From the NCBI RefSeq assembly GCF_964204645.1, contig NC_134027.1, forward strand, positions 6,436,485 through 6,500,484: 64,000 nt of DNA, written 5' to 3'. The notes under the pieces were generated by a model. It ran no database searches and was not told where the DNA came from. It saw only the letters and a program-made list of their open reading frames with translations. A program made the position numbers and the translations under genes. This document shows, in pieces, positions 7,169 to 59,300 of this stretch; the stretch's first letter is position 1; each line of letters starts with the position of its first letter. This DNA is from Tubulanus polymorphus (taxonomy: Eukaryota; Nemertea; Palaeonemertea; Tubulaniformes; Tubulanidae).

Positions 7169-7890
7169 TGTCATAGATTGGGCATATGCTATATCGGCTG
7201 GGGACATCGGTGGGGTATTTTATATACAAAGGCGTATCTAAGGTCAGATTAAGAATAATGCTGATTTTTTTGATTTCGTAACTACCTCAACATTTAAGCC
7301 TTTAAGAGATTTAAGCCTTTTTGTTTTCATCCGATGTGTACAATCTTAGACGGTATGACACCATTATTCAAATGACTGTTTGACTAAGTCATCTGAAAAC
7401 GAAGTTTTATTTCATAAATTACTGACGGTCTTCGGTTTCCATAAAATGCAGTAAATTGTATTAGATAGGTATTTTTTAACTGACCTTAAAGCACATCGGA
7501 TGTTTTTCTACGGTCCTATATACATTTATAAGTTAATACTGAATCATGAATTATCTAGATACTCACTGATAATCACTTTTGTTGTAAACAATGCAGGACA
7601 ATCACGAGACAGGCCAAGAGCAACGGCCGATAGTAAAATGTATAGAAAAAGTAGCTTTGTAATTATCAAAAAGATTTAATTGTTCATATCGAAATAAACA
7701 TATTTTTGCGTTACATAATCGTTCTTTATCTTGAAGCTCTGTGAGCAGGATCAGTGTTCGTATCGAACAGCCCGATTGTGGAAAACGTCTTACAGCGTTG
7801 TTCGTCTAATGCAGCCAGTTGTCTTACAATCGTGCGTATTTTGGCCACTAACCCGGATGAAGTAACAAACAACATAAACTAGGATAATGA
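7169..7890. other. Convergent intergenic region WIF1-like / zinc finger
   Basis: This is the gap between two convergent genes. I see no coding exon, RNA gene or repeat family in it beyond AT-rich sequence. Confidence 0.5.
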
Positions 7891-7893
7891 TAA

Positions 7894-7899
7894 TTTATT
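7894..7899 (-). terminator. Polyadenylation signal of C2H2 gene
   Basis: AATAAA on the minus strand (TTTATT on plus), about 200 bases beyond the zinc-finger stop codon at 8097. Confidence 0.5.
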
Positions 7900-8096
7900 T
7901 CAAACAAACAACATACTTGCACATCAAAAACCTTTAAAATTTGGATGGATTTTGGACGTATGGTGGCTAATTCGGGCCGTACTACATGTAAAAAAATTTC
8001 TGCTCGGCTAGAGACACAATACAATTTTCTACATTGGACAATTTTTTTTTCTCGCATGAGAAAACAAAACTTTTCGTTTTCTCGAGCCAAAATATT

Positions 8097-10144: not shown

Positions 10145-10629
10145 GATTTGTTTGCTCAGTGGTAATCGAAAAATCAAAAATCGCAAAAAAAAATTTCTAG
10201 TATATTTCGGTCTTCGACCTTGAGAGATGCGCTGCGGCAAAAAACCCGGTCGTGGTATATTGGTAAAACACGGATTCGGCCTTTAGGTGTATTCACCTCG
10301 CTCATCGGATTAAGTTTTTGATTGCCGTCCAGTGGTTCTACTCAGATAAAAGTCTTAACTTATTGGCAATAATAATTTGCTGCAACACCCGGTCGATTGA
10401 CGGTGGGCGGTTTAATCTCCTCGGCCCTGGCCTAGGGCCATGTCGAAAACTGGAAGAGAGAAGACCCGATAGGGCACTAATTTGGCAGGGTTGAGTAGCA
10501 CAGAAAATTACGGGGCGAAAGAGCTGGAATCGATCGTAACTATTTGACAGAGGAGAGCTAGTTAAAGCCAGAAAACGTAATCACCACCTTGGTTACGAAG
10601 ATAATCGGTATCGAAGCTTAGTGGTTGTT
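10145..10629. promoter_or_regulatory. Putative bidirectional promoter interval
   Basis: About 485 bp separates the start codons of two divergent genes, the C2H2 gene (-) and the coiled-coil gene (+). No TATA box is clear. The shared-promoter role is inferred only from the head-to-head arrangement. Confidence 0.4.
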
Positions 10630-13614: not shown

Positions 13615-16397
13615 ATGGCCGCCACTGAGCTGCCAACAAGTTCTATGAACAATTTGAACATCAATTTGGCAAACAATTCCACTTCGGTCGACATTCAAAA
13701 AGGCAACGAACCTGGTGCTGCAGGGAGCGGATTGATTATAGCTTCTAGTTCATTAGAAGACCTGACATTCGATGCGTTGGAAGATGAAGACGCGTCCAAA
13801 ACTCGTCGAGCGCACAGCGGAACGATCAGTCAAATCGTTCGTTCACGATCAGTTCATCCTGATGATGATGCTAATCAGGCACCAAGCCCAGCAACAACCA
13901 TAGATACTGTAAGCAAAACGTGTTAGTCTGGTAGCTTAAAGACTGCATTTCCAAGGCTCAATTTATACAATTCTAAAATAACCACCCTGCGCTCCGGTTC
14001 TTGTTAAGATTAAGTTGCCTTTCTCCAATCAATTCAATTCAAGAAAACACAGAAACATCTTCTATCTGGCATAATCAGAAGGTTCATCATGTTAGGATTG
14101 TTTAATTCCAATTATCAGCATCCCATACAAAAAATCTCTGCCCGGGATCGGATACTGTCAAAATCGAGCCCCTCATTTTGATTCAAGTGTCAAATTAAAT
14201 TTAACTTATTGCTCTTACATCGCAGGATACGAACAGTGAAGATTTAGTGCAAGGAGGCAGCGAGGATACGAGTAGTAGGGAAGATGTTTGTGAAACGAGC
14301 AGTCAATCGAGTGATATACGATCGAGAATCTATGACGCGGATGAAGAAGACGTTGAACCTGCCGATGATATTCACAGTGAGGTGTGGCGACAACAGAAAC
14401 TGCATGTATTCATACTGAGTGAAGCCGGAAAACCAATATACTCGCGGTAAGTCGGACGTTCAATAGACTTGCCTCAGATCTCTTCAAGGCTTCCCAGGTA
14501 GTTCCACTCCAGCAACAATGCTGGCCTCAATAGCTCATTGGGATTAGTTGCGATGCTGTTGCATTCATTATCAGATGCTGTTGCATTCATGCTCAGAGAC
14601 AAGCGGGTTCGAGTCCTGCTGGCTGATGACTGTGTATGGAGAAATAATACTATATAAGGCCGTCCCCATCCCTTGCTGAGGTTAAATCAACAATCCAATA
14701 GGGTTAGGCAGAGTATGACAAAAAGCAAAAACAATGGGTCATCTTCACTTGAATTGAAGTGGGAAGATTTTGTCTGGGGTACATCATAATCTGAGGCAAT
14801 CCGATCTGCGACAAGTGGAAATACAGTAAAACTGACTGGTATTGTTATTCTAGTTGAATTCATGTATACATTTTTTTTAATGAGCAGGTATGGTAAAGAG
14901 GATAAACTAGTGACGATAATGGGAGTGATGCAAGCGCTCGTGTCATTCGTACAGGACTCGAAGGATTCATTACGTTGTATCGTAGCCGGAAATCATAAAT
15001 TCGTATTTCTCGTACGCGAGCATATCATGTTAGTGTGTGTTTCACGGACAAGCGAGTCGACCGCTCAGTTGCTTATGCGACTCATGTACGTTAATAATCA
15101 AATCATCAGCGTATTAACTCATAGTCAGTTGGCGCGAATATTCAAACAGCGTCGCAATTACGATTTGCGTCGGTTGTTGTCCGGTGCTGAGAAATTCATA
15201 GACAACCTACTGCAGCTAATAGACTGTGATCCGAGTTATTTATTGGGCTCCGTGCGATGCCTGCCATTAGCTAGTTCAGTCAGGGATACTATCGCGCAAA
15301 CTGTCATTCAATATGCAAAGGTTAAGGTGAGTAAGACTAAATTAAAAACATTTTAACAATTTCCCTTGAACTCCATTGAAAGATTTCTGGAATTGTTTTC
15401 AGGATTTAGTGTTTGCGATATTGATAGCAAATAACCAATTAGTGACATTAGTTCGTATGAAGAAGTATTTCTTACACCCAGTAGATTTACATCTGATCAT
15501 CAACCTGGTCAGTGCATCAGAGTCATTCAAGGCAGCTGAATCTTGGACACCTATCTGTTTACCTAAATTCGATTCAAGGTCAGTACGCCACGGGTAGTGT
15601 CTCTCTCAGAAACTGCATATTGCAATACTTACTCCAACGCAATCTAAGCTTAGTTTGTATTTTGTATATAGTGGATACCTCCATGGACATGTATCCTATC
15701 TGGATGAAGATTGCCACACTTGCCTTTTACTATTGACCGTCGATAGAGATATGTTCTTCACGCTGTCAGATTGCAAGGCGAAGATTACTAATGTAAGTTT
15801 ATGTGGATCAACTTGATTCATCCAATTATTAGCAATCTGGTTTAGATATTTGAAAACGAACGAAAGCATTTTGTATTTTGTACCGTTTTAGAGATTAAAT
15901 CGTCACCATTGTTTGGAGGCAATTAAGGAATCAGTGCTACAAAAAGGTTACAGCACGAGGCAGGTTGGAATTCCGGACTTACGGCATTTCATATATAAAT
16001 CACGCAGTACGGCTCAGTTCACGAGTCCAGATTTCGAAGCGCCGTACGTCACTTCCGAGGAACGTGAACGGGTTTTCTCGCTATACCAATATCTACATCA
16101 TCGAATTCATAATTCAACTCGACCACTGCGATTACTATTTCACGTAGGAGAATATGAAACATTACTAGGATGGGTAAGTATTGTGAGCGAGAAGATAATG
16201 ATAATGAAAATCGAGTACTGAATGTAGATAATTCAACTTGTGTATTATATTTTAAGGTGACTGCTGGTTTTGAATTGTACACAGTATTCGGTCCATTGGT
16301 GACGAAACCAATAGCCATTCATTCCATAGAGAAATTACTGAAATGGATCAAGAGAGAAGAAGCACGCCTGTTCATTCTCAATTCACCTACCTTTTGA
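13615..16397 (+). CDS. MON1: MON1 vacuolar fusion protein (Rab7 GEF subunit)
   Basis: MON1 pairs with CCZ1 on endosomes and activates Rab7 (RAB5-to-RAB7 conversion, lysosome and autophagosome fusion). Coding exons: 13615-13908, 14226-14446, 14888-15326, 15403-15578, 15672-15792, 15892-16173, 16257-16397. Phases agree and the total encodes 557 residues, close to the usual animal length of about 550. The N-terminal 160 residues are low-complexity and acidic. The conserved first longin block begins at KLHVFILSEAGKPIYSRYG and continues through LVTIMGVMQALVSFVQD. Later conserved blocks include SGYLHGHVSYLDEDCHTC and LYTVFGPLVTK near the C terminus, which ends in TFNSPTF-like residues (LNSPTF). The start ATG at 13615 has context AAACATGGCC. 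No frameshift or missing block was seen. It is a single-copy housekeeping gene in most animals, so the orthology call is strong. Confidence 0.95.
14515..14700 (+). repeat. tRNA-derived SINE-like sequence in MON1 intron
   Basis: An A-box-like TAGCTCATTGGG at 14531-14542 and a perfect B-box GGTTCGAGTCC at 14606-14616 lie 63 bases apart. The B-box sits in a pairable T-arm (AGCGG with CTGCT). Between them a 17-bp unit, GATGCTGTTGCATTCAT, is repeated directly at 14552 and 14574. No functional anticodon arm or acceptor stem is clear, so it is not a working tRNA. A tRNA-derived SINE or tRNA pseudogene is the best reading; the outer limits are approximate. Confidence 0.55.
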
Positions 16398-22600: not shown

Positions 22601-25600
22601 ATACATATTAAATATGTCAGCACAAAGGGTTACTAAAACGTAGAAAAAAATCTAACAGCTACGGGAAAAAATACCTAGAAGGCATAGTTTCGAATAGGGA
22701 CTACTCAATAATAAACGACCACAATTTGTTCAAAATCATATTTGTTTGTGAAAAAAATTCAGTGGTTATGAAAGAGACGGATAAATTCTCTGTCTGAGTA
22801 ATGTATGGATTATCTTAGAAGTTATGTAAACTAAAAACAGAAATTTCATATGGATAACGCAAACAAGCAAGCTTTCTGTATTCATCCTTAAAAATAAAGG
22901 CTGGCTTTTGCTCAAAGCTGATCAGACAACTTAAGATTCAACCGGCAAAATGAAGCTGTTTATAAAACAGTTTGGGAAAATAGTCTACCAATTTATTGGG
23001 TATCAATATATCGCTGAGTGACCAAGGACATTGAAAATCTGAAATAAAGTAGATGTCTTTGCTGTGCAGATTACATTCTTTGTCTGATCTATGAGACACT
23101 TTAAGGGGAACTCGAAATTGATAGATTTCAAAGCAAATACTGTTCAAACGAAAGGTCAAGGTTTAGATTATAAATGACCGCTGACTGATCGTACCATAAA
23201 TATGGCCTGATTAATGAACAGTTGTAACCTTCAAAGTATTTCGGACGATATATTTGTCCATATTTTACAAGTTCTTACCTTTTGTAAACATTCTTTATCA
23301 GCTAATTCTTGAAATGCAATTATACTGAATCTGAAAGTAATAGATTGTACATTAGTGACTATTTTTGGAACTTTCCTCTTAGAATACCATAATAATGGGT
23401 TTTTAATGGACTGTTGTGAGCGGATTTCAGCATTTCTGCAGCGTGCTGAAAACCTCTGTCACAAGAGCTCTCGACCAGAGAGCTATTTTACAAGCTCTCT
23501 CGAAAATGTAAACTGCGCTAAAGCTTTTTGTTCCGATAGAAATCAAAACAATATTTACTTAAAACCAGACTCTACGTAACAGTAGTCATGATTGATCATA
23601 ATTTTATGCCGATTAAAATTTGCCACATCTGCCACAACAGACCCTGTGCATAGCAGGTTTTTGGTTCGTTTAGGTTGTTTACCCAAACTACATTACTTCA
23701 TATAGTTCAGTATCTATTTATATAGGCCTATTTAAAACCAAACTAGTTTGATCATTGACTAAGTGTCTATTGTCTTGGTTGGGAGTCTCGATTATAACTA
23801 TTTTGATATCTATGTTTTTGGGTAAAAAAAATCTGTTCGCCATATCATACCTCAATAGTATTTCTTATGAAATTGATCAAACTTTCAAGATTCCAGTTTC
23901 GAGGGCTATCTACTACACATATGTAATTCATTATTCAGTGAAGTATAAGAAACAAACACTAACGTCCGTCCGATGAAGTTTGAATTTGAAATTTATAAAT
24001 GCTATTAAGCTTTACGTTTACACAACCATCGATCAACAGTAAATTGAATCGATTTCCGATAATCTGAGTCCGAATGAATTTCCTACATTCGATTCACATT
24101 TACTTCGGTACCAGTTCATTCAACAAACCGGTAAATAGGTCCAGTGAGCAATGAACTCTGCTAGGAGTTGGTTTGATCGTGAATATTTCAAGGAGCTCAC
24201 TGGATCATCTAGGTCCAGACTTAAAATTCTAGGCTTCATCTTTCATGAAAGGCAACAATAGAATGAGCATGCTTTTATGTTCACAACACACTATCGAATA
24301 AAAATAGCTCTATAAATAATGGATCGGCCAAGTTCTAACTAACTGGAGAAGGTGCTTGCGTAATATTATAAATCTATTTCAACCGTGCAAGTCTATTTTC
24401 GACCTGTGTTTACATATTTATATCAACTTGTACATTGCATCTTTGCGAGTATTGCCAGTATTTCAGTACTCCTCTATCTGAGACTTCCTGATGAGAAATT
24501 GCAATATATCACCAGGCCCTAAACTATATCCTACTGATTGATTTAATTGTAGCAATGATACAGTACAGACGACTCAATTTCAATAACGTCTTCAAAGCTT
24601 TCAATTTTTCAAATCAAATTTCAAGCAAACAGGGCGAGGGTGGCCACTTTCGGCCACTTCACAAATCCTCAGAGTTTTACATGATTTTTTCACGTGATGA
24701 CACAAAATTCCCTGGGTGAATCAGAGAAATCTCTCGGGTTTAAAATGTTACAATTTAATCATTTCTCATCGTATCATGTATTGAAAAAGAAACTCATGGT
24801 CAATAAACAGGATTACCCAAATTCTCCCTGATTTTTTCTAGATTTTCCTGGTCAGTAACCACCCTGGCCAACTCGCAAAATATGATGTTGCATCATTTTT
24901 CACAATTTTGCACAAGTCGATGAAATGCGTAGAAACTGAATAAATCTTACCCATTCTCAAGTATCGTCCGGCAAACCACCTCGAGAACTCCGGGATTATC
25001 AGCTTTCTCGCAGCCGCAACGTTTCAGGTTCCAGCTCGCGACGCGGAACGCCGGGTGGTTCTTGCGTTTGAAATCGAACGGCGTCACGTCCGGGCGTTCA
25101 TGTTTTTCGAACAACGGTCGAAAGTGCGCGAGTATGTCCAACTGAGAATCGGTGAGTTGTTTTCGTATCAATTCCGCGCCCGTCGAAACCGAACTGTAAC
25201 GGTTATTATTGTTGCCGTTGCAATCGCTGAGTCGTTTCACCGAGTCAGTTTGCGGTAAGAAGCCATTCGTGTTATTGTTCGACGCTGAACTCGGTTCCGC
25301 GTTTAAAGTCACTTGGTGTCGAATTGCACTTAAAATCGAAGGATTGAATCCCTTCACTTTGACTAGATCATCGATGTTCTTAAAGTTGCCTTTTTTGTCT
25401 CTGTACGCGGTGATATTTTCGGCGAGTTGCTGATTGATACCTTTGATTTTCATCAACTGAAAAACATTCGAGCCATTAATCGCTATTTTACGCTTTATGC
25501 CATTTCGCATACCGACCAGGTCCGTATTGCTATTGTTAGGCGTAACGCGTTGCGAATTCGGCCGTCGATTTACGCAAATTTCCGAACTGATCAACGTCAT

Positions 25601-25918
25601 TTTGGCGGCACCGATGCCCGACACGAGCGCGATGTCTTCGATTTTTTTGAAGCCGTCTATTTGGCGACGGTACGCGACGATAGCCTGCGCGATCGCGCGA
25701 TTCACTCCGGGTAGAGTCATCAGTTCTTCCTCGGACGCCGTATTGATGTTCAACTGTTCGGGAATCGAGACTGAATCGCTGTTTGGTACCTCGACGAGAT
25801 TCCATGTCGCACTCGGATTGCGTCTGTGCTTCGTCAGTCGTTTCGGCGTCGCATGGTTTTCCTTAAAACACGGGTCCGGACCGTTTTTCGGTATGCAGCA
25901 GCTGTTTACGGCACCCAT
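19651..25918 (-). CDS. EEPD1: EEPD1-like HhH and endonuclease/exonuclease/phosphatase protein
   Basis: EEPD1 family protein, linked in vertebrates to replication-fork repair and cholesterol handling at the membrane. Minus-strand exons: 25918-24951, 23330-23279, 22347-22240, 21677-21546, 20988-20853, 20235-20041, 19847-19651 (TGA). Phases agree and the total is 595 residues (human about 569). The N terminus MGAVNSCCIPK fits an N-myristoylation site with adjacent cysteines. Two helix-hairpin-helix domains follow: LNINTASEEELMTLPGV (about residue 54) and a second around LMKIKGINQQLAENITAYRD. The EEP domain starts at FRVASWNLKRCGCEKADNPGV, continues with IIAFQELADKE and FCAELNQPTLPSVKKWKGD, and ends with LILGDFNLNPDTTDFD, YDNIWI and NWSWGGVVSDHCPVW. 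It keeps GDFN and the SDH motif, which suggests an active phosphodiesterase site. Very strong match. Confidence 0.95.
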
Positions 25919-28660
25919 TTCTATATCTGTCAGGACGATCGGTGGAACGCTTCGAAATTATTCTTCATTTCGTCTCGTCGTCTGCAAGCGTTTGAAGAAT
26001 TTCAAGTTGAAAGTCGAATATCTTCTGCAAATATAACACGAAAACAGGATGATCATCAATCTTTTATATTATTGCAAAGTCGTCATGGTTACCATCAACA
26101 GGTATCGCCATAAACTAATTTTTTAAATCACGGAGAAGATGGTTCTCGACTACGATCTCTTAACAACCCTCACTAACAGACGAACGAACGGATAAAAACT
26201 CATCTCAGTCTCGGCCGAGTTCGACATTTAACGAAGTTCCTCGAATTATCGAACCTATCAAACAGGGATAGAATGTGAAACGCGAGCAACCAATTAGTAA
26301 ATCAGTGTCCCTGGAGCAAATGTACCGCCAGACTTAGCAATGAATATAACGAGTGTCTAAACAGAGCAAACAGCGTTTCATATCTCATTTAGCGTTAGGA
26401 AAAAAGTGCCGAAACCTGATAGAAAAAGGTACCTTCCCTGTTCATTGACCTCCTGTCTGTAGTGAACAAGTCCTGAATAATAAGGTATTTCTTCTAGATA
26501 GGCAGTAGGCCTGCTGAAATACTACATTGGTCTGTACACAATTGTCACCGTCATACTAAATATCAATCACAATTGATTATGAAAGGAAAACTCGAATCTT
26601 GCTCAATATCAAACTTTGCACTCATGTTTCCAATACCTTATAATACTTTAGTGTCATTTGTGAAATCTCAGTTACACAATTCGGGAAATCATTTTATTAT
26701 ACGCTTTCATTTTTCCGTCATATCGAAATAACCAGTGAAAAGGATTGTTATTAGAAAAGGGTTTTCGGTAAATGAAATACCGTAGACACATGATTACCGC
26801 TGTAAAAGTACTAATATTAGTATCAAAGGTTGTGATTTCTAAGTAAAAGTATAGCGAAAAAGCAAGAGTACATAGAGGTACAAAGCCAGTAGTGTTCATT
26901 GTTCCGGATGCTATCTATTAAAATCGTAAAACAAACGAAACATGCCCTGAAAGTATCTTCATGTTTGTTGGGTTCTCATCATTTTTTAAAATTTGGTTTG
27001 AAATAGTTTCAAGATTTGTTGAATGGTGATATAGACCCACTACATTCAATCCTTCTAGCTGACCTTTAGGCCTTAACAGCAGGTGCAACGATTTATCCAA
27101 ATATTTTGAAAAATACGGATTAAAATGGATTGTGAGCTTTGAGTATTAACACTCCCTAAAACATTTTTTATTAGGGACCTATAGTAATAAGTAGAAAAGC
27201 CATACTGTAATTCATGCAATGTTGGTCACAAAATATCTGATTCATTGTAGCGTAGGCCGCATACCGTAGCTCCTATTTCATTCAGAATTTTGAAGTTTGT
27301 TTTTAAGATTGGAAACCTTGAGACTAACGAGTGGAATGTTATTGCCTGAAAATACTCTTGAAAATAAAAGTAGACCCTATGTGAACTGGATCAAAGACAA
27401 ATTCTATCTGGGGATATTATTTTTTTAGATGTAGGGCTTTTTGAAAATCACTTCAATGAAGAAATCATAAAAGGTTCATAGGGTAGGCCTTATTCATAAG
27501 ATAGGCCTTAGAAAGCAGGCAATCAAATATGAAAGGATACAAGCTCATTACTAGGCCTAACTATAACTAATATAGGCTGTAGGCTAGTCTTAGATGAATA
27601 AGGTACCGTATATCAGTAGGCCTAAGGCCATAGGCCCAGCCTTAAAGAGTTGGATATTATCTAGTTTCCAGTTAGATATCTTTCCTCTAATAAAGGTTTC
27701 AAGACCTATCTGTAATAACTAATGCATTGAATAGTTCATTATAGCCGATTGATGATAGCCTACAATTGGACCTACCCAAAGATTATTGTATCCTACACAA
27801 TATAACAGATAGCCAAAAATTGACAAATACCGAGATGATGATTTATCCATTCAGCTCTACATAAGGCTCTATGAATCAGCTCTATAGGCTCTATGAGTGC
27901 TTGCTTCTATATCTGATAGAGAAAAGGATATAGAGATCTGCCGGATGAACGAGTACAACTGTACTGAAATGTCATATGACAGCCGGCCCCTGCGGTCCTG
28001 CTGGTGCTGTGTGTAATATCTATTTAGGCCTACTCTGCACTACAACAATAATTAATGAATACCACGCATCAGCCTCCATGGAGATCAGCATCAATTACAT
28101 CGAATCACCAACCAATTTTCACAAAAATCAAGGATCATTTCCTACCATAATGAGACAAAGCAGAGAAGCGACCCAAAGAAATCATAAATTCTACAGCGCT
28201 AAACAGTAGTAAACACTCAAATCAAGACCATATTAGAGTATATTCATATGAATATAGATTAAGAGCATGTCTTTAATCCTCTATTTCCACTTGTTCCCCT
28301 AGCCGTTCTTTAAGTCAAAACAATACATACTAAAGCATAAGCCAACAGTTAACGTCCGGGTAAATGTCAGACTTAAGAGAGAAGACGAGGAAAATTGAGT
28401 AGGAAGTCAAGAACCGGCAACGCCAACTGACCTGGTTGGTAGCTGTAGAGACAACGAAAGTGTCCCGTTAATATAACTTTCACTGATTCCAATTAAAATA
28501 AGAATTGGTGGCTATTATTCAGAATAGGTATATCAACGTATATTACTTTATATAAACCTCAAACTTACGTAAATTCGACGTAAAACCACGAAAGATCAGG
28601 ATAAAATTCCGAAATACGCTATATCCTCTAGAAACACAATCGTGATTAACCGACTACCCG
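25919..28660. other. Intergenic region upstream of EEPD1
   Basis: No gene supported. It presumably starts with the EEPD1 promoter and 5' UTR. Around 27,480-27,640 the palindromic motif TAGGCCTA and close variants recur many times. The open frame at 27,976-28,209 has no recognisable domain. Confidence 0.45.
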
Positions 28661-32935: not shown

Positions 32936-32944
32936 TTACTACTC
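32936..32944. repeat. Left target-site duplication TTACTACTC
   Basis: Nine bases immediately outside the left TIR, identical to those immediately outside the right TIR. Confidence 0.9.
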
Positions 32945-32988
32945 GCAAAAGGTTGAAAGCCTGTTTTGGTCGATGGCTAGTGACGTCA
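32945..32988 (+). repeat. Left terminal inverted repeat
   Basis: 44 bp, matching the reverse complement of 39,766-39,809 at 43 of 44 positions. The inner 8 bases, TGACGTCA, form a perfect CRE (ATF/CREB) palindrome, and the element gene begins about 120 bp inside it. Confidence 0.9.
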
Positions 32989-33107
32989 TCAAGATCGCCT
33001 TTTTGTTACTCCCACAGCTAAACAACTCACTTTTGACGGTTAACCGCTGAATTTGAATTTGCTGTCAAGTGTATTCTTGCTGGCTGTTGATTAAAAGATT
33101 GTGAATC

Positions 33108-36100
33108 ATGTTTTCCGAACGTGTTAAGCTTGTCTCCGGACCAGTTGGTGGGTATATTGGTTTGAAAAAAGAGGTAGATTGCAAGATTATAAAAAACTCA
33201 CTGGGTAACACTGGTGAACGCCGCGAGCATCGTGCACGGTGGTGCAGGCGAGGCGTCGCGACCGCGCGGCGGCAGGGCTTTTTAATTTTGGCTTTTGCCA
33301 GTTTTGGAGTCTTGTTATTGCCACCACGGCCACGTTACCACCACACTCACATTGTCGCTAGGCCTACTGTACTGCCACTACTTTACTTGCTACTTACTCG
33401 GCTAAATTAATTTGTCTTCATCCACGCTTACTTCCCCCCTCCCCCCCCCCCCATGTTAACAAGTAATTTCTGCCAACCGAACCACCAGTCGCAGTAGCCG
33501 TAGGCAGTATACTATAGTGCAGTAGTGGGTACCCAGTGGCATGCCATTGCCATGCCACTGGGTATAGGCCTATGTTGCCCGTACACAGTCACCACCTACT
33601 AGGCCTTAAATATTCCAACAACCATTCCAAATCCAGCAACAAAAAATAAACAATAAATTTTAAGGCATCGAAACAGAAGAATGGTAGTTCCCTGTATTCA
33701 GAGTCAATGAAAATGTATTTCTTGTTGCAGATAGATAGCCTAACCAATTTCAGGATAAGTACTTTTCATTCCTTTATTTATATACGTAGCCTAACTGTTT
33801 AATCCTGGCCCTGGCCACTGAGGGTGTATGCATTAGGTCTGGTCCCAGTTTCACTGAGCTAGTTAGCCAACAATTAAGCTGAGAAATTTTGTTAAGTGGC
33901 AATTCAGGGGCAGATCAGGAGAGTATACAGGGGTGTACACCCCTTAAAACTTTTAAGTCGCAATGAAATTTAAAGGAAAAATTAAAAATATCAACAAGTA
34001 TTTTTAAAAAGCTTATATTCCAAAACATGTTCTCTGTAGGCCTACTTCCAAAATATAGGTATTATGTTTTCTGATGATCTGGTGCCCTTTTGATTTTTAA
34101 TTATATATGATACTGATATGTATGCCCTATTTTGGGCTGCACCCCTCCCTGAATCAGTCTGCCTGCAATTAAGAGGATGTTTATAGATAATTTGATTTAG
34201 AGGAATCTTTTAATTTAGTGCCTGATGTTAGGCCTTCCACAGCCTGGTAGAGGTGGTTTAGGTGAACAAGTTAGTCTTCACACTGCAGGACTTTTAGGTG
34301 AAGGTGAAACTGGCCCTTGTTTATGCATAGGCTACTGTGTGTGCACGCTTATCTTTATGCTTATTCAATTAGAATACCCATGTAGCTACCAAATAAGCAC
34401 CGCTTCAGAGGATTTTAGAAATTTTCACTTCAATAACACTGTGTTCTATTTTTGGGCACTAGCTACTATTATGCACAATTTTTTCAATCAATTCTATCAC
34501 ATTGATATACATATATGTGTCACTTCTTTTGCATGTAGTAGGGTCTTACAGTAACCAGTGTGCTCTCTCACACCTCCCTGTGATATTGGCCTGAGACTGA
34601 CAAATAATCTTTTTTGTAGCGTATTGGTCTCGTAGCAGACAGCATTTTAAAGTATGCTGGGCTAGATGGTGTAGGCTTATTTGAATGGACAAGGATCGTG
34701 TGCCCCGGAGGAACCATTGAAACATTGATGGAAGGTAATTTCTCGGTTCAGTACTGATTTATATTGTTCATTTTCATTGGGTTACTGATTAGTTGTATAT
34801 TACAGAATTGAAAAAGGTGAAGATGCTGAATGTGGAACAACTAATCGTCCATGTTGGAACAAATAATATGACGCGTGATGTCCCGCTTGAGATTGTTCTG
34901 CGAAGACACGTTGAATTAATTCGATTGTTGCTCTATAAATGTACTGGGACCATCATTGTACCAGCTCTTTTTCCTCGATGTGATGAGTAAGTATCAAGAA
35001 TAGATTTTTCTTGAAGTACTATATTTATGATCGATGTAATGATTTTTAAATTTCTTTCTTTTTTAAAGTTTCGATGCTGACACAAAAATATTTCATTACA
35101 ATGAAATGCTGCACCGCGAATGCTTTACACTTGGTGTAAAGTTCGTTGATTTTCACTTCTCAAGAGATCTCCTTTCACCGTAAGTAATCGTTTAATCTTA
35201 ATAAGCCCAGTAGGTTATGTGCATTTTTTCGCGATTTAAACTAACTTGTTTTTTTCTAAATTTTGTGATCTAGGACTGACTTGTTACACCCCAGCCGTAA
35301 GGGAAATCAGTTCATAAATAACAGGATAATGGAACTACTGCTATTGAAAGATGAAGATGAAATGTACGTAGAATTTTTCAATGGTGATACTCAATATACA
35401 TTCAATCAGCTTGATGTTTTAGAAGAAAGATTCCCCGATAAAGTATCAATATCCGAGGAACATTCATATGACATTTCAAAAAAATGCCGAAGGTACATAG
35501 GAAATTTAGATTCAATATCCAGTCGTATCTTATTCAATTACGTTATTACAATCGTTCCTGAAAATTGTCTTTCATACGTAGATGGTAATTGCCATTTAAT
35601 CAATTTGAAACTAGGTATATGTACTTGTGAAGCTTTTATAATGATTGGACAACCATATTTTTGCAAACATCTTTTTGCCTGTTTTGCCCAAAAAAACAAT
35701 ATAACCACAACGAAGGCTTTAATTGATGCATATAAATTCCACATTGTGGAGCCTCTGCCAACTTACAATTTTACTCGACAAAATAGTTCTGTTTCATCTA
35801 CCCTCATTGATAAGTTAAAAGATCATTCCCACATTGCTAGCTCGAATGATATCAATGCTGCTCGGAAAGGGCACATTCTAAGTATTTTACATAATGAAAG
35901 CCACTGTGGAATTAAGTTAATAAGCGGACGACCTGCCAAACGACAACCTCACAATATGGCTCATAGGCGTGCTGAGGGTCCAATCAAGGACAATCAGGTT
36001 GCCATAAACCTTCCTGAACTTGAAGTGATAGACCCTTACTGCCCTAAGGTTACAATGCCTAAAGATGCTGAGAATGCAAGACACGGAGGGCGAAAGATAA

Positions 36101-36952
36101 TTAGACCTGCTAACAGAGGTGTATCCTTTTCTGCTATGGTTGAAAATGCTGCTATGAAACTAGGTTAAAAAAGCTAAAATATCAGAAATTGAAACCATAG
36201 ACTCCACTGATCCAGATCCTGGCAATGATATCGAATTTTCAGCAGATATTTTAAGTCAGAATAAATCATCCTTACCGAAAAAATCAAAAGATACCAAACC
36301 AAAAGATATTAAGTCATAACCAGTTGTTAAAAATGACTCGAAGTCTGTTTTATTTGAAAAAAGTATTGTCTGTTCCTTTTGTATTAAAGACAAAATAAAT
36401 CCTCCATATCTTTGTTCATGTCGCAGGGAACTAGATAGGCACATATCCACTTCTCATTCATCTTTGAAACCTATCTCATGTGCTATTTGTTGGGCAGATG
36501 GGGTTATTAATTCATATGCAAGTGAAACATTCCTTCAAAAGCACATTCGTATTGAACATAATCATCATAAGAAAAAATCTATTGTAATCGATTATAATAA
36601 TAGAGATGATTATCTCAACAGTTCTCCTATTACAGAAATCAATAATTCCAATACTGAAAAAGAATTAGAAATTCTTATAGATCAACCTGGAAATGCAGGC
36701 CTCCAAAACCTAGCAAAATTGAAACTAGATAATCTTTTGCCATCAAAAGTTGAAAAAACCCCTCCTCAGTTAGTTGCTGAAACCTGCCCTGTCTGCCACA
36801 AAAACTGCAATGCTAATCCTAAGAAAAAGTCCACATTCTCAATTGAATGTGATAATTGCCATAGATGGTATCATTGGAAATGTGCTCCAATCAATGAGGC
36901 TCCTCCTGAACATATCAGGTGGTTTTGTTTTCATTGTGACCCGATTTCCTAA
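33108..36952 (+). CDS. Transposon gene: SGNH hydrolase-like, SWIM, C2H2 and PHD fusion
   Basis: Model: 33108-33173, 34620-34734, 34806-34986, 35069-35179, 35274-36163, 36324-36952, in phase, 663 residues. Exon 1 and the last intron are the least certain. An SGNH/GDSL-esterase-like domain comes first: IGLVADSILKYAG (nucleophile block; Gly of GDS is Ala, Ser kept), IVHVGTNNMTRD (GxN block) and TDLLHPSRKGNQ (DxxH block). So the Ser, Asn, Asp and His are present. Next is a SWIM zinc finger, CTC then CKH (CxC-x11-CxH, near 35,620-35,680). Two C2H2-like fingers follow (near 36,370 and 36,480), then a C4HC3 PHD finger, CPVCHKNC to WFCFHC (36,786-36,936). SWIM fingers are known from MULE transposases, and esterase and PHD domains from CR1-type ORF1 proteins, but here no DDE or RT domain is present. 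If the 36164-36323 intron is not real, the gene is broken by a frameshift near 36,165 and a TAA at 36,317. Function unknown. Confidence 0.7.
33433..33452. repeat. Poly-C run in transposon intron
   Basis: A run of mainly C bases (six C, a T, then about 13 C) within the first intron of the transposon gene. The length may be unreliable in assemblies. Confidence 0.7.
33530..33564. repeat. 14-bp-arm hairpin inside transposon
   Basis: Perfect inverted arms TACCCAGTGGCATG (33,530-33,543) and CATGCCACTGGGTA (33,551-33,564) are separated by 7 bases. It lies in the first intron of the transposon gene. Confidence 0.85.
36164..36323 (+). other. Putative short intron or lesion zone in transposon gene
   Basis: Reading straight through, the long frame stops at TAA 36,166 and the downstream frame has a TAA at 36,317. 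Splicing CTAG|GTTAAA to ACCAG|TTGTT removes both and keeps frame. An alternative acceptor, TTTCAG|CA at 36,243, fixes the frame but leaves the second stop. Both acceptors are phase-compatible; the pyrimidine tract is poor for the first. Confidence 0.4.
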
Positions 36953-36956
36953 ATAG

Positions 36957-37684
36957 TTTGTATTGAATATTATTGATCGGGTTTCGAATGAATCCCTGAC
37001 GTTAGAAATATTTTCATTTCCCATGGTGAACGTAGAAGCCGTCACTTAGTCACCTATATATTTACTCGATTACATATAAGGTTAAGAAGCGATGTATATG
37101 CACTGGTGTTTATAGTGCTCTATTTCAGGTTTTTTCTTTCAGGAAAATATATTTTGTGAATAGATTACCGCTTGATTTTTTATGTTACAGGTTACTGCAA
37201 AATCATCAGTTATTGTGATGCGTGCCGATGTCTCTGGATGATTCTGACCATGTCTAGAACTTCAACATCCTTGACTTATCATCAATTGGCAGCAGTATAC
37301 ATACATGCATGTTCAGAGAGTGTATGGACACATCAACCTCGGTTCAAGGCTGTCCTTGTATAATCCATATATAATATATATAGATTGGTCCCATTTTAAC
37401 TTACTCAACTGCTTGAATGTCTTGTTTGTTATTCGTAAATTTTCACTTATTCATTGATTGTTTCTGTAGAATTTTATATGTGATATATAAACGTGGAAAC
37501 CAGGGCCCATTGCACTATGAAAGACACTTGACATTTTTTTGGGACAGATCTTTCTATATGTTTATGTCCTCGAGGCATCTGAAGTTAAGAAAATTCCCTT
37601 TGAAAACTGGAAATGACATAATGAAATAAGTTGTGGAATGTTTAAATTCGACAAAATGAATGTATTTTGCATTCCTAAGGCCCT
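36957..37684. other. Transposon internal sequence without a gene
   Basis: This is the 3' flank of the transposon gene, AT-rich, and I see no domain in any frame. The DDE domain expected of an autonomous Mutator-like element is not here. Confidence 0.5.
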
Positions 37685-38715
37685 ATATATTTACTGCAGT
37701 TAGTCCTGTATGTCTTTTTTATCGCAATTTACTGTGGTTTATTCCTGTTTGTCCTGTATGTCTTTGTGATCGCAATCGCAATTCATTGGTTGCATTGTTT
37801 ACTGTTAATCCTGTATGTCTATCGCAATTAAGTTAGTCCTGTATGTCCTGTATGTCTTAGTTAATCGCAATTCATTGGTTGAATTGTCTGCTGTTAGTCC
37901 TGTATGTCCTGTATGTCTTAGTTAATCGCAATTCATTGATTGCATTGTCTACTGTTAGTCCTGTATGTCCTGTATGTCTTAGTTAATCGCAATTCATTGG
38001 TTGCATTGTTTACTGTTAGTCCTGTATATTCTGTATGTCTATCGCAATTAAGTTAGTCCTGTATGTCCTGTGGTTTAGTCCTGTATGTCTTAGTTAATCG
38101 CAATTCATTGGTTGAATTGTCTACTGTTAGTCCTGTATGTCCTGTGGTTTTGTCCTGTATGTCTTTGTGATCGCGATCGCAATTCATTGGTTGCATTGTT
38201 TACTGTTAGTCCTGTATGTCTATCGCAATTAAGTTAGTCCTGTATGTCCTGTATGTCTTAGTTAATCGCAATTCATTGGTTGTTGAATTGTCTACTGTTA
38301 GTCCTGTATGTCCTGTATGTCTTACTTAATCGCAATTCATTGGTTGCATTGTTTACTGTTAGTCCTGTATGTCTATCGCAATTAAGTTAGTCCTGTATGT
38401 CCTGTATGTCTTAGTTAATCGCAATTCATTGGTTGTTGAATTGTCTACTGTTAGTCCTGTATGTCCTGTGGTTTAGTCCTGTATGTCTTAGTTAATCGCA
38501 ATTCGTTGGTTGAATTGTCTACTGTTAATCCTGTATGTCCTGTATGTCTATCGCAATTAAGTTAGTCCTGTTTGTCCTGTATGTCTTAGCTACGAGCAAT
38601 TATCAAACTTGATAATTGCTCGTAGGTCTTAGTTAATCGCAATTCATTGGTTGCATTGTTTACTGTTAAAGCTGTATGTTCTGTATCTCTATCGCAATTT
38701 CATTGGTTGAATTGT
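37685..38715. repeat. Roughly 1-kb minisatellite inside transposon
   Basis: About a dozen degenerate tandem copies of a 60-100 bp compound unit are built from GTTAGTCCTGTATGTC, CTTAGTTAATCGCAATTC and ATTGGTTGCATTGTTTACTG modules. Copies differ by gain or loss of the CCTGTATGT module, so both the inner and outer units are repeated. It lies 3' of the element's gene and 5' of the right TIR. Confidence 0.85.
38590..38625. repeat. 17-bp-arm perfect hairpin within the minisatellite
   Basis: Perfect arms at 38,590-38,606 (CTACGAGCAATTATCAA) and 38,609-38,625 have a 2-base spacer. The hairpin interrupts one copy of the tandem unit and is followed by a repeat of GTCTTAG-like sequence, as if inserted. 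Confidence 0.85.
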
Positions 38716-38866
38716 TAACAGTCCTCTGTATGTACATGTAAAAATAATTAAGGTTCTGACAACAGGTTTGTAAAGTAATCAGCTATCTGTTTTGTCTATC
38801 GTTGCTTAAATTGTTAACTGTTGTTTTAGAGTTCTGTATGTCTTTGTCGATCATTTTGTCTGCACT

Positions 38867-39106
38867 CAGGGGCGGATCCAGCATTTTGAAGGGGGGGGGC
38901 AAATGAAAGCAACAACAGATGGCTGTAAGCCATTCCAGAGCAAGCACCGATAACGCGAAGACCCTCCCTAAAAATTTTTTGGAAAAATAGATGCAAGCAG
39001 GTGCATTCTGAGCATTACTTAATAGAAAGATTTCATTCGGTTTTTACTCAGTAACGCATAGATTTGCGGCTACATCGGTAAAAATAGAGGGGTGGATCCG
39101 CCACTG
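38867..39106. mobile_element. 240-bp nested MITE-like element
   Basis: The ends CAGGGGCGGATCCA (38,867) and the reverse complement of CAGTGGCGGATCCA (to 39,106) match at 13 of 14 positions. There is no open frame and no clear target duplication. The CAGGGGCGGATCC end is a type I associate with small hAT-like elements, but without a duplication the superfamily is uncertain. Confidence 0.6.
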
Positions 39107-39765
39107 AATAGCTATTGTTTTGTGTAGGATTGTATCTGTGAATTAAGTAAAGTTACTTACTCCAGTCTGATGTTATTGCTTATTGCTCGTATTTTATTGT
39201 TTTAAGTGTGCGAATACTTTTCTTAGATTTATGGAGATCAGGATGACGAGGGTTCGATTTGAACCAACAAATAAACAAAAACATTCAAACCTCAAATTAA
39301 TCCGTTTACTTGTCTTTATTTTTGGGGAACATTTTTTTACCTAGTTCAGATTTGATAACACAGTAGTCGCTTGTTCCAAAGCGATGTGCCGTTGAAGACA
39401 GACCTGAAGGTCTTTGCCGATAGCGATGCTATCCAGGATTTCAAAGGATGTGAAGAAGGTGCATCTTCGACAACCATAGTTTGCAGTTTTAACAATTTAA
39501 AACAATAATAGTTTCATTAAACAACTTAAAATTTAAAGATTTAGTGGACTTACTGTTTAACCAGGGCAGGGATTTCTCGCAACCGTACATGATATATACA
39601 TACACTAGCAGTAAATACAATGTACTTCTAACCCTTATAAAACTTAAACTATTATTAGTTATTTTACAATTATTGAACGGCAACGTTGAAATGCGATGTG
39701 CGCTCAGAGCGGCCGTAGTGATTTTGGCGTATTGTGGGATTCGAACCGCTCGGAATTTGTACTAG

Positions 39766-39809
39766 TGACGTCACTCGCCATCGACCAAAACAGGCTTTCA
39801 ACCTTTTGC
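39766..39809 (-). repeat. Right terminal inverted repeat
   Basis: The 44-bp partner of 32,945-32,988, in inverted orientation. It also has TGACGTCA at its inner edge (39,766-39,773). Confidence 0.9.
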
Positions 39810-39818
39810 TTACTACTC
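39810..39818. repeat. Right target-site duplication TTACTACTC
   Basis: Identical to the 9 bases left of the element. Confidence 0.9.
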
Positions 39819-53300: not shown

Positions 53301-56300
53301 GTCATCAGCTGCCGAGTAGCTGCTGCCCATTATTGTAACGGTTACTATGGCAATGTAGTCCATCACTCTCGCTTTTCACAGGACAGTTTTCAGTGTTTGA
53401 TCGGATACGCGACTGTTAGGACTCATCTCAGGTCCTCTCATCTGATCTGAAAAATACGTATGTTCAGAAATGGCCGAGTATGGATTTTACTTTAGTAAAG
53501 GTATACGTAATAATTGAAACAATTGATTATTTTGAAAGTGTTTTGAAATTATTGATATAAAAACATATAATAGGTATTGGAGAATTGGAGGTGTTTGTTT
53601 AATAGGAATTTCATTAAATCAGTTGGTAATTAATGGAATCGCTTTGAATTAAGTTATTTGTGTGAAGCTGAGAGAGGTGATGTGATTCTCTTATTACCAT
53701 GGTGATTGCAGCTGCTGGATTCTATTTCCTCGGGCAAAATAGGGAAATGAAAGTTATTGATTGGAAAGCGATTAAACTTATTGATCTCGCTCATTATCAT
53801 ATGCAGCTTCTGGTATCTAGCAGAAGATGGATATTGTGATGAAATCCGGGGATAAAGCGGGGTTCGGTGAATTATTGCGAGCTATGCGTGTCATGATGTG
53901 ACTAATGAAATGGGCGGTACGAATGATCGTTGAAAATCGTTACTGCGGTAATTGTTGCTCAAAATAAAAACCTGAATTGATCAAGTTGTGATATTTGCTG
54001 ATAAATTTGAGAGCAAACCCAGCTGTATTGATACTGTAGCATCTACCCTGGTGATGGGTTATAAACTCTAACGCAGCTGTCTCCCGCTCTCTCTCCCTCT
54101 CTCTTCTTTCTCTTCTCTTTAATAAAAGGCGCGTCACATGTACAGATATATATCTATTTGTATAGGACCATTGGTTAAAAAAGTTAGAAATATTAGATTC
54201 GGTATATGAAAATCAGAAATTCTAAACCGTATTATCCAAAACAGGTGAATACAGGCATCTGCCCCTCCTGCTCAATATATATATATATATTATATATATT
54301 TATATGTACGAGCAGAAGATATGTACAATAGATAGAATGATAGTTAGACTCATGATGGATGTAACTGCAACAGGTGTGATGTGACGAACGTTTGCTTCAT
54401 TCGTTAATAAAATGTCGTCATCGAAAGCCATCATTCGTCAATATCATAGACAATAATAATACTGAGATATGATATATGACGATTGTTTCATCATCATGTT
54501 ATTTTTAATTAAATCACTTATTGCCATATTAACCCATTCAACTGCAGAGCGCTTGTCAGTAATTTGGTCAGTAAAGTATTGGTATCTATATTCGATATTT
54601 TTTTCATTTCAGAAACTGATGAAGATGATATGCATAATATAGGAACAGCGGCTGAGCTGATGGGGAACAGTGATATCGAAACCACCGCCACTACCTCTGA
54701 TAATACACAGGTAAATTGACTGCATTGTAAGCGGTATAATTCAAACCAGTTTGTTTTCTCGAGAGTGTAGTTGTATTCATATTCTGTCCGCCGATTTGAA
54801 TGAGTGAATGATATAATCATTATTTTTCGTTAATAAAGAATGAAACTGCTGCTGCTGCTGCTGCTGCGGATACAGAAATGGTAACGCCTGATAAAGATAC
54901 AAACAATAACCGTGATAATAACCGCGAATCTATCGATGACCCCGATCGACTGGTGATCGTTGAACCTTCAGACCCGGATGACGTGCCTTCATCGACTGCA
55001 TCTAGCGTGTCCGGTGACCAGGGCGCATCTCCGAATCCATCCTTTCAGTCCACGCCTGGAAAAGGACGCAAGAGTCACAGCAAGGTAATGTAGAAGAATT
55101 GTTCGCAAAAATTAAAGATACTCTCGATCTAGATTGAACTCAACATTCTCTGTTGTGCTCCCAAGTCACCTGTAAATGAATATATTTTCAGATCGTTCCA
55201 GTCGCCGACAAAACTGGCGAGAAGAAATATATATGTCCGATTTGTAGCCAGCATCTTGGTTCCCAGCATGAGCTTACTGTCCATATCCGCAATCACAACT
55301 CTAAAGTTCCATCTTCACATTCCTGCACAATCTGTGGAAAGGTTTTGTGTTCCCAAAGTTCACTGGATCGACACATGTTAGTCCATTCCGGTAAGTTTTT
55401 GTTTTTCAAGTACGAAATTTGTGGTGCCAGTCGCAGTTTCTTGTACGCGTTCATTTTCTGTTTTTCAGGTGAACGTCCGTTTAAATGTCAAATTTGTCAC
55501 GTGTCTTTCACTACGAATGGCAACATGCACCGGCATATGCGCGTACACGAGAAGGAGTTCGCGAAATCTCCGTATCTGCTGAAAAACGCTCTCGACAGCG
55601 GTCTGTTGAATCTGAACGAGAATCGACGTGGCCGAAAACGCAAACAGCCGCTGTTCAGTGACCTGACTCTCAACGAGGAGAAACGTCGCGTCATTGAACA
55701 GGACGATAACACACCTCTAGCCATACCACTGAACTCCGATAAAGACGAACAAAAACAAGAATCGATGAAATTGCCGTTAGCATCGCCTAAACACGATTCA
55801 GACGATTCTTCTGAGGTAAGAGAATGATCATAAAGTTTCCTGCTGACACATATATATACACATAAATGTGGTATTTAGGAGGAAATGGGTTCTAACGATG
55901 TTCATTTATAGTTTGCTTTTTTCCGTCAACAGTCTGGAGAAACCGGGTAAAACACTGTGTACATCGATGTCGTTGTCATGCTATTGTCTATCTATTTCTT
56001 CTTTCTTACATCTTTTCATGTTGCATATTGACAATTTCTCGAAAACGCGAAATATTGAAAAGATCGTTTTGAATTGTTTTTGTGATGAAATTCGTTCTGT
56101 ATTATCATAATTTTTGCATGTTTCAGTGTTATGCTGCTGCTGTCTTTTTATTATCTTTTTGTAGTCATTTATCATATCATATGATTATTGTCTCATCCGG
56201 ACAACTGATGTACGTAGTTTAAATTTATTCCGAACTTAAAGATCCTTTCATTTTAATTTCAGTGTAAAACGTTATGTAGATCATGCGGCTCTCAATTCAG

Positions 56301-59300
56301 CACCTCTGCAGGGCTGGAGAAACATTTGGAAAACAATCCTGAATGTCATTTCAAATGCGGCGAATGTGGTAATCAGTTCAATGATCAAAGTCAGCTCAAT
56401 ATGCACCGTGCAATCGCTCATGCCGAAAAAGATATCGGCAGTCCGAGTCTTTTTAAAAATGGTTTCAATCCGGTGGCTGGCTTTCACGAAGTAGGATTTG
56501 TCAACTTTGCGACGGAGAAATTTCCGCAAATATTCCGCGAGGAAAAAGACACGGCGAAACCGAGCTCCGATGTATCTCAACAAGCGTGTAGTAAATGTAA
56601 TATGGTATTTCCTTCAATCGACATGCTCAAAATCCACATGATCAGTCACCTTCCCGAGAATATCATTCACTGCGATTTCTGTGATTGCGATTTCGTCGAT
56701 AACCACACGTTGAAAGAACATTTGTCAACGCATGCAGCAGAGATGGTCATCCCAAATGATGACTCTGGTAATAACAAAGACTCCCAAGTTTCCAAGGGCG
56801 ATTTCCTAGCCATGCTGAATTTAGCATCAGGTCCTGAAACGCGTGACGACGATGAAAGTATGCGCTCCGATAGCCTAATAAATGAAGAATACTTCCGTAA
56901 ACTCAATCAGATCGATCACGCAGGACTTTCATCCGCACCTAGCTCAGCTATTCCGTCCCCAGTGTCTATGATTCCTGATGAAAGTAACTCGCAAGACTTT
57001 GCCGATATTCACAAGATAATTCAGAACGCAAATGCCAGTGGTATTCCAGCATTTTCCACAGCGGCATCGACAGTGTCGAGAATGTCACCTGCGTCATCCG
57101 TCCATTCATACGGTTCGGCAGCCGCTTTGACCCCGACTCGCTTCATGATGGGAGCGTTTCCGTATAAACAAGATCTCGTTGATATGGATGAAAGCGATCG
57201 AAGTTTGGCAGCGAGCCCGGCTGGATCAAACATTACAGATGTCGCAATAGACACAGCCGCTGAAAATGAAGAGAAGGGGAAACACCGATTTACCTGTAAA
57301 TATTGCGAAGTCGGATTTGAAACTTTCAATGCAATGAAGGGTACATACATTGATTATTTCCTTCGGAACCATTTTCACAGCTTTGGGTTAGAATCTGACT
57401 GAAATTCGTTTTTACAAATTTGACTCAAATCCTCATCTGTGGAACGTACATTCCTAAATGGATTAAGAAAATATCTATTGAATAGGTGAATTAAATTTTA
57501 TATGTCCTTCCTTGTTTATTTTAGTTCACATGCGATCACACTTGGGTCTATCACCTTACAAGTGTAATATGTGTCCATATGCTAGCGCTGATAAAACTAC
57601 CCTAATTCGCCATCTACGAACACATAACGGTGAACGGCCATTCCAATGCAAAATTTGCGCTTTCGCATTCACTACAAAGGCAAACTGTGAAAGACATGTC
57701 AAGTAAGTTTTCAACTACCTTGTTTTTCCCTTTTACAACAGTTTAACTCAGGGTTATTACAACTTAATCAAGATGAAGTGCTCTTTAAAACTCGCCCTAG
57801 TTAAAATTAACCAGTCAAACCCATAGAAGGCGACTGGAATTATAATTTGCATTACCTGCATTTGTAGGAAGAAGCATGGAAAAATAACCAAAGAGGAAAT
57901 TGATGAAGCCGTTGGCTACAACCAGTATATGAAAGAAGAGGCTTCAAATGAAAAGATGAGCCCAAATAAAGTCAATAGCACAGATACCGTCTGTAAATAC
58001 TGTGGGGAAGATTTCAAGTTTTTCCGTGCGCTGAAACATCATCTACGTTCGCATACGAGCTGTCGTTTGAAACCTTTCGTTTGCACGTTGTGTGATATTG
58101 GCTTCTCGACGAAGGCAAATTGTATTCGTCATATACAAAAACAGCACGGACAGGTGAACGTCAGTTCTGTAGAAACCTTTATCCGAACAAATGTGCCAAA
58201 CGCGATGCCAAATCAGCAATTCGAAACACCGAAATTAGCTGCGTCATATCCGACAGCAGTAATGGCACTACAGTCAGCTATCCGTCCACAGATATACGTT
58301 ACACCACCTCCAGCTCATTCCAGTAAACCTCAGGTACCACATTTCCCGATTCAACTATTCACACCTACTTACTACCCCGGAAATCTTCAAGTGCCACCAA
58401 TTGCCAAAATTGAGACACCTCCACCAGCATCGATTACTGGTGGTAATCCGATTGACTTTAGTATTAAGTCGGAGCCTGCTGACTTCACGGCAAAGAAACA
58501 AAGTCCAGACGCACCTGTCGGAGCTTCAGAACAACGCAGAGATACACCAACCATGAATCTTGATGAACCGATGGATTTAAGTCAACCGTTATCAGCAGTT
58601 ACCGACACACCAAAATCGAGCATCGAAGAAACTGGAAAACTACAACAAATGTTGTTTGCTCCAGTAAACAGTCAAGCGACGGCCACAGTTGCGACAGCTT
58701 CATCGTCCTCGGTGCATCCAGCTTTCCGCACATACCGCTGTCCTGTCTGCCAGGTTCAGTTCAGCTCCGATACCAAGGTAATTTCAACAAAGCTCTTCTA
58801 TCAGAATGTACTTAAAAACCATATAGGTTTCATTCTTAAGTTAGATTCGTATTTATATTGATGTTGTTTATACTTTCAGTTGCACACTCATATGAAGACA
58901 CATACGACTAACCGTCCATTCCAGTGCACGTATTGTCCAGCTGGATTTACTATCAAAACCAACCTCGATATACATATCCGTACACGTCACCTCGACAGCA
59001 CGCCGGCAGCCCCATCTACACTCGCTACTTTACACAGTATGCTCGGCTCACGTAAATACATATCGCCGACATTGCGTATGATGGCCAAGCGTAAACAGTC
59101 ACAGCCCCAACACCGCCGTCCAAGTAGGACCGCTGAGAAACGCATCGTACATTCAGAGACTGAAGATGTCAAGCCGACTGAAGATGATTTGGCGTCTGTG
59201 AATAAGATAATCAGCAACACGGCGGATAATATGCCAGTTTTCCCTACAAAAGACACAGGACTGACTGAGAGTCGTGATGCTGTTGATATCGAACCATTGA

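Follow-up and report, generated by a model that had tools for sequence, protein, structure and literature searches.

What kind of transposon keeps nearly perfect ends and a perfect target duplication, yet shows no transposase in the gene that it encloses? The question is raised by a 6865-bp element at positions 32945-39809 of a 64,000-nucleotide stretch of contig NC_134027.1 of the nemertean Tubulanus polymorphus (hereafter the window). The element is bounded by 44-nt terminal inverted repeats (TIRs) whose arms are 98% complementary (43/44), and an exact 9-bp target site duplication (TSD), TTACTACTC, lies on both sides of it. An earlier, sequence-only reading of the window had placed both the inverted ends and the duplication exactly here and had taken them to mark a complete transposon. 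That conclusion is borne out by the TIRs, the TSD and the recurrence of the ends elsewhere in the genome with copy-specific duplications. Based on the analyses presented here, the element is very probably a non-autonomous, internally deleted form of a 12.1-kb parent. This parent is a DNA transposon of the cut-and-paste type, recently active and related to Mutator and Rehavkus.

Element copies were sought in the 268-Mb assembly (77 contigs) from which the window is taken, with 100 bp from the left end of the element and 119 bp from its right end as queries; the match lists include the window copy. Each end has at least 40 genome matches (the best 40 of 70 candidates on the left, of 64 on the right). 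On the left, 32 of the 40 extend over 86 or more of the 100 bases, and on the right 32 of the 40 extend over 109 or more of the 119; the other eight matches for each end are to the TIR alone (43-50 bases). The distance between ends, paired by hand, ranges from about 2.1 to 17 kb. TSDs were compared in 26 units, namely 15 copies taken whole, 10 taken as two halves and the window copy, with L024-L028, represented by sequence from one end only, excluded from the count. Both ends could be recognised in 24 of these units (L009 and L019 each lack one recognisable end). An exact 9-bp TSD flanks 18 of the 24, all 18 differing from one another, and none of 1926 random pairings of left and right flanks was identical at 9 bp. 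The number of copies and their individual TSDs rule out a chance inverted repeat or an assembly artefact. The sequence-only reading had staked its claim on such a TIR search and on the duplications flanking further copies; many copies were found, and neither an absence of other copies nor a general misfit of their ends was encountered.

The usual long form of the family is about 12 kb. Our reference full-length copy, C2:2994277-3006373 (L031 + L032), measures 12097 bp and contains one frame of 1918 codons without a stop. When the DDE part of this frame was used as a genome query, eight complete, stop-free family matches of 454 amino acids were recovered, lying in frames of 1918 codons in seven cases and 1770 in one; in the seven 1918-codon copies the DDE part is 100% identical to the query after rounding. 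An additional complete match, at 54% identity, belongs to a diverged family. Stops interrupt the DDE part in other long copies (e.g., C5:22764590, C4:12478530 and C12:9990197). Most aligned pieces longer than 1 kb in the long copies are 98-99.9% identical to the reference, with lower values (94-97%) for pieces of L035, L037, L038 and L044.

Aligned to the full-length copy, the window element consists of element positions 1-2432 joined to 7793-12097. The lost segment, 2433-7792, includes the protease-like and DDE parts, so the window copy, as had been proposed from its sequence, is indeed non-autonomous and lacks its own DDE domain. Of the unusual cargo gene that was also proposed there is no sign as a separate unit: the enclosed gene consists of the two ends of the predicted transposase gene, the middle having been deleted. 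It does start just inside the left TIR, with exon 1 at 33108, but as part of this larger gene and not as a stand-alone one. In one gapped alignment the right part of the window copy is 92% identical to the reference, a figure for which we think the minisatellite near the right end largely accounts. The identical deletion junction occurs in L013, L021 and L023. Two of these (L013 and L023) share 99.8% identity with the window copy over its full length, and L021, which carries a further deletion, is 99.9% identical across 5443 bp; an indel in exon 3 distinguishes each of the three. The TSDs of L013, L021 and L023 are AATAATCGG, CGTGACCCG and CTCGGGTGG, respectively. Given that one deletion joint is found at four loci with four different TSDs, the deleted form has itself transposed, and we infer that it was mobilised in trans as a non-autonomous derivative. 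The gene is damaged in this form: the frame past the junction ends at 36165 in the window copy, and the same 299-codon post-junction frame is found in all four deletion copies.

The gene model was built on the 12.1-kb reference copy and then placed in the window. It has 11 short exons upstream of a giant exon, with GT-AG borders at all 11 introns, and the predicted spliced product is a protein of 2259 amino acids without a stop. All 11 upstream exons, with at most three differences each, are present in L022, L029, L034, L039, L042, L043 and L046 as well as in the reference (L031), and one of the 11 is missing in each of L028 and L038. As predicted, the protein would carry an SGNH hydrolase domain, an Ulp1-like protease region, a GATA-like finger, a catalytic core of the form D-D-CxxH-W-E, SWIM-like and C2H2-like motifs, and a PHD finger.

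The diverged family, represented by L049 (C6:15722500-15728300), has a frame of 1711 codons in the analysed stretch and shares 44% amino-acid identity with the parent across 1648 aligned codons of the giant exon. The NG86 estimates of nonsynonymous (dN 0.54) and synonymous divergence (dS 2.26) say only that the giant-exon protein is under constraint, and can be read no further since dS is saturated. The two families agree at D1406, D1498, C1517xxH1520, W1594, W1600 and E1629, and the blocks around the D, D and E are the best conserved of those measured (73, 66 and 63%). In Muta1, an experimentally tested MULE (Mutator-like element), the corresponding residues are D214, D283, H307, W401 and E419 (PMC5225508). 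The spacing from the second D to the E (131 here versus 136 in Muta1) and from the second D to the H (22 versus 24) is similar, and that between the two Ds (92 versus 69) less close. Motif and conservation, rather than fold, thus support a MULE-like catalytic core. The profile search of full-length copies for a MULE or other DDE domain, which the sequence-only reading had recommended, found no match to any Pfam transposase model in the parent or diverged proteins. Searched as a profile against the PDB, the DDE part had one match, to an unrelated protein. Two scans for relatives in a viral collection gave no pattern match and 33 pattern-matched stretches, respectively, none of the latter confirmed.

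Among the accessory domains, the PHD finger is the solid assignment in the predicted protein. It scores above the PF00628 cut-off in the window piece, in the diverged family and in a piece from the C-terminus of L032, and falls below it (22.6 bits, cut-off 24) when the whole long frame of L032 is scored. Its best PDB match is TAF3, which reads H3K4me3. The spliced front part matches PF13472 (GDSL/SGNH) with 34.6 bits against a cut-off of 32.9, and in a PDB search up to E 10 the SGNH part found only two Oskar structures (E 0.008 and 0.0087) and the ORF1-encoded 4c1b (E 0.11), which we take to be the ZfL2-1 esterase. An SGNH-type esterase domain has been described in ORF1 of the non-LTR retrotransposon ZfL2-1 (PMC3905857). 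Oskar is a host protein and ZfL2-1 ORF1 a retrotransposon protein, whereas in the parent protein the SGNH-type domain that it shares with them would be part of a DNA transposase. We found no report of an SGNH/GDSL domain in a transposase among the titles and abstract openings listed in searches of the open-access literature, which does not include most subscription journals.

The remaining assignments are more tentative. Ulp1 proteases have their catalytic residues in the order H, D, Q...C, and the protease-like region retains all of them in that order. In a single-sequence PDB search its first match is yeast Ulp1 (E 0.83). A two-sequence profile (A2) gave six of seven matches to Ulp1 or chlamydial Dub1-type cysteine proteases (E 0.19-0.32), five of the six being forms of a single Dub1 enzyme and hence non-independent. 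The Pfam C48 model (PF02902) has no match in this family and matches 23 other places in the genome. Two of these, C4:26328541 and C2:24206705, lie within 1758-codon open frames outside the window element's family, and possibly represent another large mobile element. For the GATA-like finger the PDB gave a match to GATA-1 (E 1.1e-7), although its Pfam score stays under the cut-off, and the SWIM motif was recognised by eye, with an E of 0.1 in the diverged family.

In its general structure the family fits Rehavkus, a MULE relative, better than any other described kind, the comparison being one of described features only. Rehavkus elements, recorded from arthropods and annelids, have a 9-bp TSD, a TIR of 26-400 bp, a PHD finger and, ahead of the 3' TIR, a minisatellite (PMC6446971), and all four features recur here (9-bp TSDs in 18 of 24 copies, a 44-bp TIR, the PHD finger and a minisatellite of ~61-bp units before the 3' TIR). 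Rehavkus-1_TC is 9.5 kb long (PMC10218199), compared with 12.1 kb for the parent, and SGNH and Ulp1-like parts are absent from the accessible part of the Rehavkus description (PMC6446971). Within the MULE/Rehavkus kind the parent is a new form that stands out by its size and its predicted domain set. Two other systems offer partial parallels. Ginger1 transposons also have an Ulp1-like protease, and at least one Ginger1 family also a PHD finger; unlike the parent they have 4-bp TSDs and a Gypsy-type integrase, with no SGNH domain mentioned in the accessible text (PMC2836005). The PHD finger of RAG2, a protein of transposon origin (PMC4411706), is a precedent for such a finger beside a transposase.

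Table 1. Features of the element and its surroundings, in window coordinates
Feature	Position	Strand	Basis or remark
Left TSD copy, TTACTACTC	32936..32944		exact sequence match
Left 44-bp TIR	32945..32988	+	inverted-repeat comparison; recurs elsewhere in genome
Exon 1, start of SGNH part	33108..33204	+	gene model; 1 substitution in window
Exon 2, ADS motif of SGNH domain	34636..34734	+	gene model
Exon 3, GTNN motif of SGNH domain	34806..34986	+	gene model
Exon 4	35069..35179	+	gene model
Exon 5, DxxH-type motif DLLHP of SGNH domain	35274..35363	+	gene model
Deletion junction, ~5.36 kb of parent missing	35376..35377		alignment to parent
Remnant of giant exon, SWIM-like motif CxC...CxH at 35620-35670	35377..36165	+	frame stops at end
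Open stretch, C2H2-like motifs recognised by eye, C-terminal PHD finger at ~36785-36937	36320..36949	+	PF00628, 26.5 bits, cut-off 24
Minisatellite of ~61-bp units ahead of right end	37690..38721	+	core array 37832-38543
Right 44-bp TIR	39766..39809	-	inverted-repeat comparison; recurs elsewhere in genome
Right TSD copy	39810..39818		exact sequence match
EGF-like domains	6221-6658	+	domain scan
C2H2 zinc-finger coding stretch	8100-9488	-	domain scan
Longin domain, FUZ/MON1 type	14790-15353	+	domain scan
Helix-hairpin-helix repeats	24950-25957	-	domain scan
C2H2 zinc-finger coding stretch	55180-60049	+	domain scan

Coordinates of the element are collected in Table 1, together with those of its neighbours. 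The genes nearby that encode a Longin domain, helix-hairpin-helix repeats and EGF-like domains are of ordinary animal type, as judged by the domain scan.

Several copies are of interest in their own right. L010, L012, L018 and L020 are 4.8-kb derivatives with family ends (~0.4 kb on the left, 2.6 kb on the right) around a repeat-rich middle of ~2.3 kb unrelated to the family; all but L010 are flanked by an exact 9-bp TSD. The longest copy, L047/L048, holds a foreign 5.5-kb insertion (L048:2895-8380) with inverted ends of its own (GGGTAACTCCACGTAATTTCGGAAG on the left, its near-complement on the right), apparently another DNA transposon within a full-length copy. A self-complementary insertion of 543 bp (~90-92% to its own complement) is found in L029 (861-1403), L016, L017 and L039. 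Given that it occupies the same element position (~658) in all four and is 98-99% alike among them, this sub-lineage probably amplified after gaining it. As for the insertion sites, the TSDs show no clear consensus by eye in a sequence logo. The 53 flanks have a G+C of 0.41 and a CpG value of 1.15, compared with 0.37 and 0.96 for the rest of the single window; since this is a poor background and paired flanks are not independent, no insertion preference is claimed. When the 18 flank pairs were joined and compared with the copy sequences, three matches crossed the joint (L020, L039 and L043), each a self-match at the copy's own element end, and were judged spurious.

A number of observations speak against a recently active transposon of the Mutator/Rehavkus kind, or against the protein that we assign to it. 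Six of the 24 two-ended copies have no exact 9-bp TSD: the nine positions differ at six bases in L010, L029/L030 and L035/L036, at three in L011 and at two in L037/L038, and L045/L046, which starts 6 bases from a contig end, also has no exact TSD. In L029/L030 the identical nine letters are present on both sides, shifted by one base. The assembly contains no empty counterpart of the site into which the window copy inserted. The exon model is predicted from sequence, and two junctions were corrected for the frame to hold. Comparison within the family gave no signal of selection on exons 1-11, where exons differ about as much as introns, as in decaying copies. The W-to-E distance in the proposed core is 29 or 35, versus 18 in Muta1, and the MULE profile PF10551 matches neither the parent transposase nor its diverged relative. 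The SWIM, GATA and protease assignments are under curated cut-offs or individually non-significant.

How the family should be filed is less certain than what the window copy is. The sequence-only reading had called the element Mutator-like, to which TSD length and the parent's catalytic motif conform and the PF10551 result does not. It could be an ordinary MULE of a described clade such as Phantom with an enlarged protein, which we consider possible though rather unlikely. This alternative concerns filing only and shares the deletion-derivative reading, so its probability and that of our preferred reading are not to be added to one. MULE TSDs are 8-10 bp long (PMC5225508), which includes the 9 bp seen here, and the D, D, CxxH, W and E follow one another as in Muta1 (PMC5225508), CxxH and W included. 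Some MULEs, from hydra, lancelet and plants, are reported to contain an Ulp1 domain (PMC2836005). On the other hand, PF10551 misses the parent yet marks 56 other places in the genome (E<=0.001), none in the window element's family. The parent's 12.1 kb exceeds the 1.4-10.0 kb range of 322 arthropod MULEs (PMC13359780), and the Muta1 transposase has 504 amino acids, with no PHD, SGNH or protease domain in its accessible description (PMC5225508). In addition, the PHD finger and minisatellite are stated to be what separates Rehavkus from MULEs (PMC6446971).

A further argument for the ordinary MULE comes from three of the 56 PF10551 places, where a stretch ~3 kb downstream on the same strand is 43-46% identical to the PHD-bearing C-terminus of the diverged family. 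The three MULEs concerned are at C5:13156024, C12:9938272 and C9:8491762, and their PHD-like stretches at C5:13159407, C12:9941435 and C9:8494641 (E 1.7e-5, 1.7e-5 and 9e-5). Each PHD-like stretch and its PF10551 match may belong to a single gene. The C5 and C12 places look like near-identical copies, so that these may be two cases and not three.

The SGNH exons could be a captured host gene, cargo of the Pack-MULE type and separate from the transposase. MULEs tend to pick up host gene fragments (PMC6446971), and the domain resembles Oskar. However, the exons are in frame with the giant exon under the predicted splicing, and exon 3 has four genome matches outside the family that divide on the question. 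Two (C7:9334088 and C1:19778219) have no transposase match nearby, as expected of cargo. The other two each precede a diverged transposase copy on its own strand, C10:9254480 by 5.1 kb (copy at C10:9259604) and C4:9937172 by 17 kb (copy at C4:9953994), and are weak (E 0.004 and 0.0016). No exon-3 match was listed near C6:15.73 Mb, where the diverged family of L049 is located. Given the matches upstream of diverged transposase copies, an old association is favoured; weak as they are, they speak for the SGNH domain being an old part of the transposase and not recent cargo, which we regard as improbable.

A lineage outside both MULEs and Rehavkus, forming a superfamily of its own, seems equally improbable. 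It would be in keeping with the failure of all Pfam transposase models and with the unconfirmed viral relatives, whereas the TSD, TIR, catalytic motif, PHD finger and minisatellite each have a parallel in MULEs or Rehavkus. The undescribed superfamily that the sequence-only reading had offered as an option is thus not demonstrated, and the structure fits, by description, the little-studied Rehavkus. A KDZ (Zisupton-like) element is suggested by the large multi-domain transposases of that group, which have a SWIM finger and an Ulp1-like part. It is very improbable, given that the Zisupton TSD is 8 bp (PMC12730594) versus exactly 9 bp in 18 of 24 copies here and that no KDZ family is among the Pfam matches.

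We return to the preferred reading, a transposon of the Mutator/Rehavkus kind with deletion derivatives such as the window copy. In this scenario a single spliced protein of ~2259 amino acids would bind the TIRs through its zinc fingers, and the D-D-E core would cut and join DNA, with staggered cuts at the target leaving the 9-bp duplications. Histone H3 tails at active promoters are probably what the PHD finger recognises, and it may in this way help to direct insertion. The Ulp1-like region probably takes SUMO or ubiquitin off either host proteins or the transposase itself. The SGNH domain could be an esterase or, as in Oskar, a binding module; this is a guess. Having kept its ends, the window copy would move only with transposase supplied in trans by a full-length copy, and intact parent copies are present in the genome. 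We suggest tentatively, and with less than even confidence, that this is a distinct, recently active MULE-related lineage whose single giant transposase combines an Oskar-like SGNH domain, an Ulp1-like protease, a DDE core and a TAF3-like PHD finger. Such an element would be self-contained, seeking out active promoters and altering the modification of host proteins as it transposes.

As of 2019 very few Rehavkus elements had been recorded, and these were known from Repbase alone (PMC6446971). A family with seven whole-frame copies and derivatives mobilised in trans offers a testable system. If the SGNH fusion is true, a domain of the Oskar and L2-ORF1 type would be found inside a DNA transposase, and the PHD finger would allow a direct test of chromatin-guided insertion.

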